From: Acidocella sp. KAb 2-4
Lineage (GTDB): Bacteria; Pseudomonadota; Alphaproteobacteria; Acetobacterales; Acetobacteraceae
NCBI RefSeq assembly: GCF_020567705.1
Contig: NZ_JAJDJU010000015.1
Coordinates: forward strand, 1 to 64,000
Length of the DNA: 64,000 nucleotides
Direction: 5' to 3'
A model generated the notes under the pieces. That model saw nothing but the letters and a program-made list of their open reading frames with translations. It was not told the DNA's origin and did not search any database. The position numbers and the translations under genes are program-made. Below, piece after piece: positions 2,418-5,783 of this stretch; the stretch's first letter is position 1; every line of letters starts with the position of its first letter.

Positions 2418-3305
2418 TTACGGCCACTTCACTTCCGGCGGCATGGACATGAGGATCGCCTCGGTATTGCCGCCGGTTTTCAGCCCGAACATCGTGCCGC
2501 GGTCGTAGAGCAGGTTGAACTCCACATAGCGACCGCGGCGGATGAGTTGCGCCTCGCGCTCTTGCGCCGTGTAGGGCTCGGCGAAGCGCCGGCGCGCGAT
2601 CGGCGGATAAGCGGCGAGGAACGCCTCGCCGACATCGCGGGTGAAGGCGAAATCCGCCTCGGCATCGCCGGAATCCAGATAATCGTAGAAAATCCCGCCC
2701 GCGCCGCGCGGCTCCTGGCGGTGCGGCAGGTAGAAATATTCGTCGCACCAGGCTTTGAACTTGGCGTAATAATCCGGGTTGTGAGCGTCGCAGGCGCGGC
2801 GATAGGCGGCGTGGAAATGCGCCGCGTCCTCGGCGGCCTCGGCGCTGCCGGGCTGCAAGGGGGTGAGGTCGCCGCCGCCGCCGAACCAGCCCTTGGCCGT
2901 TACGATCATGCGCGTGTTCATGTGCACAGCCGGCAGCTTGGGGCTGCGCGGATGCGCCACCAGCGAGATCCCCGCCGCCCAGAATTTCGCCCCCGCCTCG
3001 GTGCCGGGGATGCGCTTGGCGAAATCCTCTGAAAATTCACCTTCGACTACCGAGACATTCACCCCGGCCTTCTCGAAGACCTGGCCGCGGATCACGCTCA
3101 TCACGCCGCCGCCGCCGCCGGGGCGGTCCCAGGCGGTGCGCGCGAAGCGTCCGGGATGGGGGCCGGCGAGGTCTTCGATGGCCTCGAACTCGGCGCAAAT
3201 ACGGTCGCGCAGCTGCGCGAACCAAGCGGCGGCGCGCGGTTTGAGCGCCGCGTGCGGGGGGAAGTTGTTCATGCGATTGAGTTTAGGGGCTTCTTGACGC
3301 GTCAT
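2418..3305 (-). CDS. hemF: Oxygen-dependent coproporphyrinogen III oxidase
   Basis: About 295 residues, normal for HemF, which converts coproporphyrinogen III to protoporphyrinogen IX with O2 in haem synthesis. Family signatures are clear: [14 protein letters not shown], the VHMNTRM strand, [18 protein letters not shown] and [12 protein letters not shown], then [20 protein letters not shown] near the C-terminus. The start MTRQEAPK at 3305 was chosen because a weak AAGAG element precedes it. An internal ATG at 3272 is the alternative; extension to 3584 would overlap petA. Divergent from petABC, whose c1 subunit needs haem. Confidence 0.93.
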
Positions 3306-3378: not shown

Positions 3379-3936
3379 ATGGCTGAAACAGCAGCAACAG
3401 AGGCTTCGGGCCACGGCACCGAATCGCGGCGTGGCTTTCTCACCATCCTGACTGGCGCGGCCAGCGCCGTCGCCATTGGTGCGATCGGCTGGCCGTTGGT
3501 CGACGCCCTCAACCCGGACGCCGAGAGCGAGGCCGGGGCGCGGCTGATCGTGGATGTCGCGGATATCGCCGAGAACACCGCCAAGGCGGTGCAATGGGGC
3601 GGGCTGCCGATCTATATCCGCAAGCTCACCGCGCAGCAGATCGCCGATGCCCAGGCCGTGGTGCCCGACACGCTGCCCGACCCGGCGGATTTTATGTCCC
3701 GCGTGCCCGCCGCCTACCAGAATTATGTCGTGGTGGTGGGGCTGAACACCGGCACACCCTGCGAGCTGGAGGGCAATGACCCCGCCGACCCGCGCGGCGA
3801 TTTCGGCGGCTGGATCTGCCCCTGCGATGGCAGCCAATACGATCCGCTGGGGCGCGTGCGCTCTGGCCCGGCGAAGAAAAATCTCGCCATTCCCCGCTTC
3901 ACCTTCATCAACGCCGCGCAGATCCAGTTCGGCTGA
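3379..3936 (+). CDS. petA: Rieske-like bc1 subunit lacking most [2Fe-2S] ligands
   Basis: 185 residues with the architecture of the bc1 Rieske protein: a twin-arginine-type start ([11 protein letters not shown], 16-26), a membrane anchor to about 44, a hinge, and the soluble Rieske fold ending NLAIPRFTF. The cluster motifs are altered. Box 1, normally CTHxGC, reads NTGTPC (123-128); box 2, normally CPCHGS, reads CPCDGS (147-152). The expected Cys/His and Cys/His ligands are therefore Asn123, Gly125, Cys147 and Asp150. The disulfide pair Cys128/Cys149 remains. A normal [2Fe-2S] cluster is not expected. First gene of a petABC operon; the start matches the twin-arginine peptide. Confidence 0.88.
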
Positions 3937-3948
3937 GGACAAGGCATC

Positions 3949-5073
3949 ATGACCACGGACGCAAAACAATCCTGGGCCGGTGAACGCATGCCCTGTCTGG
4001 GCGGCCTGTGCGGCGCGCTGTTCGCGCCGCGCTGCACGCCGGAAGGTAAATACCTTGACACATTGCCGGGGCTGATCGCCATCGCGCTCGCCTTCCTCAC
4101 GCTCTCGGGCGCGGTGATGGCGGCGTATTACGACCCGTGGCACGCCTTCGCCTCGGTGCAGTTCATCCGGCGCGAGGTGAATAATGGCTGGCTGGTGCAG
4201 GCTTACCACGCTACCGGGGCCACGGCGCTGTTCGGGCTGGTGTATCTGCATCTGTTCCGCGTCATGCTCACCCGCGCCTATCGCGCTCCCGGCGAGTTTG
4301 CCTGGTGGCTGGCGGTGAAGCTGCTGGCGCTGCTGCTGTTCGTGGGCTGGATGGGCTTTGTGCTGAGCGGCGGGGCGGCGGGATATTGGTCGCTGTTCAA
4401 CGCCGCCAATGCGGCGGTGAGCCTGCCCGGCGCGCCGGGGGCGGTGGCGCGCTGGTTCCTGGGCGGCCCCGCGGCGCCGGCTTCTCTGGCGCGGCTGGAG
4501 ATGTTCCACACCGTGCTGGCGCTGGCGGCGCTGGCCGTGGCGGGCGGGCTGCTGGCGGCGCGGCGCAAGGTGGCGCCCCAGCCCGCGCCGGGCAAGGGGG
4601 TGGCGTTTTACCCCTATTACCTCGCGCAATATCTGGCGGCGCTGGCGGTGTTCGCGCTGATCTTCTCGGTGCTGCTGTTCTTTGCCCCGCATTTCGGCCA
4701 GCCCGCGGTGAATGCGCTGGCGGCTGACCCCCTCACCCTGCCGGCGGGCACGGCGCTGCCGTGGTATCTGCTGCCCCTGGCCGGGGTGGCTGACGCGCTG
4801 CCCGGCCTGTGGGGCGGGGTGGCCGGCGTGGCGGGCGCGCTCGTGGTGCTGGCGGCGCTGCCCTGGCTCGACCGCGCGGGGCCGGACGGCGCCAAGGGCA
4901 AGCTGTATTGCGCGCTAACCTGGATTTTGGCGCTCGACGTGCTCGCCCTGGGCGCCACCTCGGCCGCGCATGACAACCCGCAGGCGCCGCTGCTGCTGGG
5001 GCTGTTCACCCTCTGGTATTTCTTCCACTTTCTGGTGCTCACCCCGCTGGTGACCGCGATGGAGGCCAAATAA
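3949..5073 (+). CDS. petB: Degenerate cytochrome b subunit of a bc1-like complex
   Basis: 374 residues, shorter than the usual 400 or more, with about eight hydrophobic segments. Helix B is well preserved (VNNGWLVQAYHATGA...YLHLFR) with His87 and His101. Helix D keeps His187 (EMFHTV), but the position 14 residues on, normally the second haem bH ligand, is Leu201. The Qo-site PWG motif after helix C reads SGG (140-142), and PEWY reads LPWY (270-273), losing the catalytic Glu. One b haem (bL) could still be bis-His ligated. It follows petA by 12 nt and its TAA overlaps the petC ATG. Confidence 0.88.
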   Translation: MTTDAKQSWAGERMPCLGGLCGALFAPRCTPEGKYLDTLPGLIAIALAFLTLSGAVMAAYYDPWHAFASVQFIRREVNNGWLVQAYHATGATALFGLVYLHLFRVMLTRAYRAPGEFAWWLAVKLLALLLFVGWMGFVLSGGAAGYWSLFNAANAAVSLPGAPGAVARWFLGGPAAPASLARLEMFHTVLALAALAVAGGLLAARRKVAPQPAPGKGVAFYPYYLAQYLAALAVFALIFSVLLFFAPHFGQPAVNALAADPLTLPAGTALPWYLLPLAGVADALPGLWGGVAGVAGALVVLAALPWLDRAGPDGAKGKLYCALTWILALDVLALGATSAAHDNPQAPLLLGLFTLWYFFHFLVLTPLVTAMEAK

Positions 5074-5783
5074 TGCGCCGGTTTTTCGCCCCGCTTCTGG
5101 CCCTGGGCCTCGCCGCCGCCGGAGCCGCCCAGGCCGAGGACACGCTGACCCCGCTGCATTTCCAGAGCCAGGGGGCGCTGGGGAGTATCGACAAGGCCGC
5201 CGCGCAGCGTGGCTTTCTGGTTTATCAGACCGTCTGCGCCGCGTGCCACTCGGCCAATGCGCTGCATTACCGCGACCTTGAGGCCCTGGGCCTGACGCCC
5301 GACCAGGCCGCGGGTGTGGCGGCGGGGGTGAAACTCGCCGATGGCAGCGCCGCGACGCTCGATTCGCCGTTCAAGGACCCGGCGATGCCCGCCTCGGCCT
5401 TTGGCGGCGCGGCGCCGCCCGATCTCTCCAGCATCGTCGCCCAGCGCAAGCATGGCACGATGTATATCTACAAGCTGCTCACCGGCTATGCCGCCGCGCC
5501 GCAGAGCGTGAACCTGCTGCCCGGGCATTATTACAATACCGCCTTCCCTGGCGGGCAGATCGCCATGCCGCCGGTGCTGCGCGATAACGCGGTGACCTAT
5601 GCCGACGGCACCGCCGCCACTGCCCAGCAGGAGGCAGCGGATGTCGCGGAGTTCCTCACCTGGGCGGCGGACCCGAATCTCAGCGCGCGTCACCAGATCG
5701 GGCTGCGGGCGGTGATCTTCTTCCTGTTTCTCAGCCTTGTCGCGCTTGCCTCCAAGCGCGGTATCTGGCGCGAGCGGGCCTGA
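5073..5783 (+). CDS. petC: Cytochrome c1 of the bc1-like complex
   Basis: 236 residues: signal peptide to about 21 (AAQA), the haem c site CAACH at 55-59, PPDLS near 115-119, YIYKLLTGY near 131-139, the axial Met165 in GGQIAMPP, and a C-terminal membrane anchor near 212-228 followed by KRGIWRE. All features needed for a working c1 are present, unlike its two partners. The ATG overlaps the petB stop. It should be exported and haem-loaded in the periplasm, anchored to the inner membrane. Confidence 0.93.
   Translation: MRRFFAPLLALGLAAAGAAQAEDTLTPLHFQSQGALGSIDKAAAQRGFLVYQTVCAACHSANALHYRDLEALGLTPDQAAGVAAGVKLADGSAATLDSPFKDPAMPASAFGGAAPPDLSSIVAQRKHGTMYIYKLLTGYAAAPQSVNLLPGHYYNTAFPGGQIAMPPVLRDNAVTYADGTAATAQQEAADVAEFLTWAADPNLSARHQIGLRAVIFFLFLSLVALASKRGIWRERA

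Follow-up and report, generated by a model that had tools for sequence, protein, structure and literature searches.

Throughout Acidocella the petABC operon, as judged from the encoded residues, lacks the ligands of the Rieske cluster and a complete heme bH histidine pair while keeping those of heme bL and cytochrome c1, and codon comparisons indicate that it is maintained by purifying selection. The operon was first noticed in a stretch of 64,000 nucleotides from Acidocella sp. KAb 2-4, here called the window, where it occupies the following positions.

2418 to 3275, reverse strand: hemF, coproporphyrinogen oxidase, divergent neighbour of petABC
3379 to 3936, forward strand: petA, Rieske-fold subunit without the cluster ligands, 185 aa, Tat/anchor N-terminus retained (family profile, alignment, model)
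3745 to 3762, forward strand: petA box 1, NTGTPC; Cys ligand replaced by Asn123, His ligand by Gly125; disulfide Cys128 retained
3817 to 3834, forward strand: petA box 2, CPCDGS; Cys147 and disulfide Cys149 retained, His ligand replaced by Asp150
3949 to 5073, forward strand: petB, cytochrome b; bL histidine pair H87 and H187 retained, PEWY changed to LPWY
5073 to 5783, forward strand: petC, cytochrome c1; CAACH and axial Met165 intact

The petA product is a member of the NCBIfam family TIGR01416 (Rieske_proteo; 127 bits, cut-off 97), and its N-terminal anchor/Tat segment is present, with a match to PF10399. The Pfam Rieske domain model gives no match to it. The two boxes are CTHLGC and CPCHGS in relatives whose complex is normal, and the phmmer alignment to the Paracoccus protein (2yiu_C) places N and G opposite C and H of CTHLGC, and D opposite H of CPCHGS. 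The set of two Cys and two His that ligates [2Fe-2S] is incomplete and reads N/G/C/D in the window (codons for Asn123 at 3745-3747, Gly125 at 3751-3753, Cys128 at 3760-3762, Cys147 at 3817-3819, Cys149 at 3823-3825 and Asp150 at 3826-3828). The first-pass annotation had reported the loss of three of four ligands and the retention of Cys147 and of the pair Cys128/Cys149, and for the window this is exact in residues and coordinates. The replacements support the view that this PetA would be unable to bind a [2Fe-2S] cluster normally. That the fold would be otherwise normal, as the same annotation proposed, agrees with the AF2 model, in which the soluble domain has a pLDDT of about 90-97 and lies 1.7 A rmsd from bovine 1rie; Foldseek matches the model to ISP chains.

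All fetched Acidocella petA copies, which represent 29 distinct operons from separate assemblies, carry ligand replacements. The first and fourth positions hold Asn and Asp in 29/29, the second is Gly in 24 and Ala in 5, and the third, corresponding to Cys147, is Cys in 20 and Ser in 9. All four ligands are therefore absent in those nine. Variation thus continues at the one ligand still left, in contrast to the new Asn and Asp, which do not vary. The disulfide cysteine pair (a predicted bond) is found in 29/29 as well, as are the Ser and Tyr of the hydrogen bonds to the cluster, and nowhere in PetA is conservation within the genus higher than in the subdomain that once bound the cluster, where 24 of 51 positions are invariant. 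Every one of the 18 Acidocella genomes that are at least 90% complete has a single such gene with an open frame. The protein of A. aromatica DSM 27026 is 84% identical to that of the window. That the replacements stem from faulty sequencing or assembly of the window can practically be dismissed: we found no supporting evidence for it, and the identical residues recur in all these separately assembled operons, A. aromatica included.

To the first-pass annotation the altered protein did not look like random decay, and the wider comparison bears this out. Frames are open in every Acidocella genome carrying petA, so the premature stops expected of simple decay do not appear, and dN/dS of petA between close species, which had been suggested as a check, is well below 1 at about 0.12-0.36 (Nei-Gojobori on the closest species pairs, more distant pairs being limited by saturation). 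This is similar to intact petA elsewhere in the family (about 0.09-0.4). For close pairs the values were 0.08-0.5 in petB and 0.02-0.25 in petC, and the median for Acidocella ctaD, used as a control, was 0.09. Neither the broken frames nor the dN/dS near 1 of a pseudogene operon were found in Acidocella petABC. The constraint is not evenly spread: cytochrome b identity is 51% within Acidocella vs 81% among seven genomes from other genera whose complex is intact, but c1 identity is 65% in both sets, which indicates that constraint was relaxed on cytochrome b and kept on c1.

This relaxation could also be taken as slow decay of a useless operon, all the more as decay is real in a sister genus: in Acidiphilium G153 and G096 petC is broken and petA largely or wholly missing. 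We regard it as improbable for Acidocella, given the open frames, the low dN/dS of all three genes, and the invariant c1 ligands and nearly invariant bL ligands.

The first-pass annotation overlooked the cytochromes: cytochrome b, encoded next to petA, is likewise without bH and without the glutamate of the Qo site, and c1 is intact. In the petB of the window one histidine of the bH pair, in helix D, has become Leu and the other is retained. Across Acidocella the bH positions hold many different residues and the complete His pair occurs in 0/29 operons, while the bL positions are retained in 29/29 and 28/29, the single copy with one bL ligand lost being L083. Glu of PEWY is replaced by Pro in 29/29, with W and Y retained. 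The fold of cytochrome b is kept in the AF2 model of PetB (TM about 0.85 to bc1 cytochrome b). In c1 the CxxCH and axial Met ligands (C,C,H,M) are present in 29/29. Of the features of a functional bc1, then, Acidocella has the CxxCH and Met of c1, but neither the full axial histidine set of bL and bH nor PEWY.

With cluster, bH and PEWY Glu missing, the established bc1 mechanism would leave no bifurcated quinol oxidation and no Q cycle; the earlier expectation that quinol could not be oxidised in the usual way is in line with this, the classical Q cycle being excluded on the residues found. A profile search of the genome found no second, intact petA, which the first-pass annotation had suggested looking for, among 14 Rieske-domain matches, and no NrfD-type protein, the mark of an alternative Complex III, was found. 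From their sizes, 370-499 aa or 122-141 aa, we read the 14 matches, all in open frames, as ring-hydroxylating oxygenases and ferredoxins. At least 10 frames of 370-499 aa occur in this 3.1-Mb genome, and their number suggests a wide use of aromatic compounds. We found a complete aa3 operon, ctaC-D-B-E, whose CtaC has the CuA motif CNQICGLNHDAM, a 693-aa bo3-like COX1 homologue, Complex I (by its 49-kDa family match), and two c-type cytochromes, one a diheme c anchored in the membrane and the other small and of class I. In another genome, G126, a frame of the COX1 family (G126:C1:787601-788944) is interrupted by a single TAG. Acidocella thus keeps an aa3 oxidase with no recognised quinol to cytochrome c route left, which makes the electron donor of this oxidase a testable question.

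The losses are asymmetric, sparing c1 and bL but not bH or the cluster, and this fits a b-c1 core that holds a working c1 heme. We infer, at roughly even confidence, that Acidocella PetABC is a non-catalytic bc1 core presenting this heme. Cytochrome b, stabilised by heme bL, would anchor cytochrome c1 in the membrane, and the c-heme of c1 would still work, carrying one electron at a time for the branch of periplasmic cytochrome c and aa3 oxidase. The Rieske head, free of a cluster, would stay docked and act as a structural cap, with the disulfide and the invariant Asn123 and Asp150 holding its tip in place, and quinol oxidation would be left to the bo3-type oxidase. Heme bL may have been retained as the first heme inserted during assembly, the order described for yeast bc1 (PMC9502982). 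Both the production of PetABC and the reduction of c1 are predictions of this c1-carrier scheme. Against it, relatives with decayed c1 or no petABC keep aa3, so c1 is not generally required: the aa3-type oxidase is present in Acidiphilium G153 and G096, which have decayed c1, and in genus g100, which has no petABC. A strict need of c1 for aa3 fails on these genomes. The L083 copy with its lost bL ligand also speaks against a c1 carrier. If only a scaffold for c1 were required, the strong constraint on PetA would be hard to explain, since A. multivorum has petBC without petA.

Alternatively, the complex may be a selected, repurposed enzyme in which the two hemes bL and c1 transfer electrons in a new, non-bifurcating reaction and the Rieske site has been rebuilt around Asn123/Asp150 for a new function, e.g. 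the binding of another metal. Ligands are retained for exactly two of the three hemes, and the new Asn and Asp are present in 29/29, as would be expected; a respiratory complex would then have changed its function with its architecture kept. We hold this to be doubtful. In known bc1 structures the bL and c1 hemes are too distant for direct electron transfer without the cluster, and the drift of the third position between Cys and Ser and of the second between Gly and Ala is unlike a metal site.

A third explanation is the proposal of Degli Esposti et al. (2023) (PMC10715153) that a non-functional bc1 is kept to stabilise Complex I. We consider this unlikely. A match to the Complex I 49-kDa family was found in all 31 Acidocella genomes searched, as the proposal would have it, but full-length NuoD-like matches also occur in relatives that have lost petABC (Acidisoma G053 and G179, genus g100) and in Acidiphilium G153 and G096, whose petABC is decayed. 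A strict need of bc1 for Complex I thus fails. These relatives weaken the proposed role as a general rule, not specifically in Acidocella. Moreover, a purely structural function leaves the invariant Met and CxxCH of c1 unexplained.

Regarding the origin of the locus, hemF adjoins petABC in nearly all fetched Acidocella loci and also in Acidiphilium, Acidisoma and relatives with normal bc1, and in the c1 tree the Acidocella sequences group on a single branch. These two observations rule out a horizontal replacement and indicate that the lineage has kept its original petABC operon, which was altered in place. The petABC of Acidisoma (G217, G130) resembles that of Acidocella in the loss of the Rieske His ligands and one bH ligand, in the changed PEWY and in the intact c1. 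It differs in that the Cys ligands are retained, His is replaced by Pro/Thr or Arg/Asn, PEWY reads PQWY and, in G217, the disulfide cysteines are lost. The boxes read CDRNGI/CPTNGS in Acidisoma sp. PAMC 29798 (G217, locus L166), where neither His and neither disulfide Cys is left; those of G130 (L165) read CGPDGC/CPCTGS. In both genomes the ligand losses look independent. The differing replacements among Acidocella, Acidisoma and Acidiphilium suggest parallel events.

In Acidiphilium G196 (L164; petA 3646-4282, petB 4271-5486) all four Rieske ligands are present (CPHRGC and CPCHGA, with Ser to Ala and Tyr to Phe), and in the adjacent cytochrome b neither of the bH histidines nor the PEWY Glu is left. 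This suggests that the loss of bH may have preceded that of the Rieske ligands there. Acidiphilium G232 (A. multivorum), whose plasmid shows 100% identity to that strain AIU301 of the species and so places the genus, has petBC and no petA. The petC has an internal loss in G153 (L168), is shortened in G096 (L169), and appears frameshifted in genus g57 (G132, L170). Acidocella, Acidiphilium and Acidisoma together offer a graded series, from loss of bH with all Rieske ligands still present, through loss of the Rieske ligands and absence of petA, to a decayed operon.

The canonical alphaproteobacterial bc1 of Rhodobacter and Paracoccus (2yiu, 6nin, 9fks) shares with Acidocella the petABC order, the three-subunit core, the folds of PetA and PetB and the ligands of c1 heme and bL. 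Acidocella differs from it in the incomplete [2Fe-2S] ligand set, the lost bH site and the change of PEWY Glu to Pro. With a complex III that selection maintains despite the missing catalytic cluster, Acidocella provides a natural test of other bc1 roles, such as scaffold, c1 carrier or supercomplex partner.

The loss of Rieske ligands in Acidocella is already known, as PMC10715153 describes a "deranged" bc1 complex of acidophilic Acetobacteraceae. In that paper the Acidocella ISP is without three or four ligands and keeps the disulfide pair, bH histidines are lost and c1 is intact, and the window and the 29 Acidocella operons have these same features. The paper also proposes iron oxidation as the electron source, beside the structural role for Complex I, and states that bH ligands are never lost without mutation of the ISP and that Acidiphilium lacks the ISP gene. 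The Acidiphilium G196 ISP, with four ligands despite lost bH, contradicts such a constant tie. Unlike the present analysis, the part of the paper available contains no dN/dS or per-position tallies. New here are the genus-wide measure of selection, the retention of bL and c1 while bH and the cluster go, the Acidiphilium with four Rieske ligands despite its lost bH, and Complex I in relatives without bc1.
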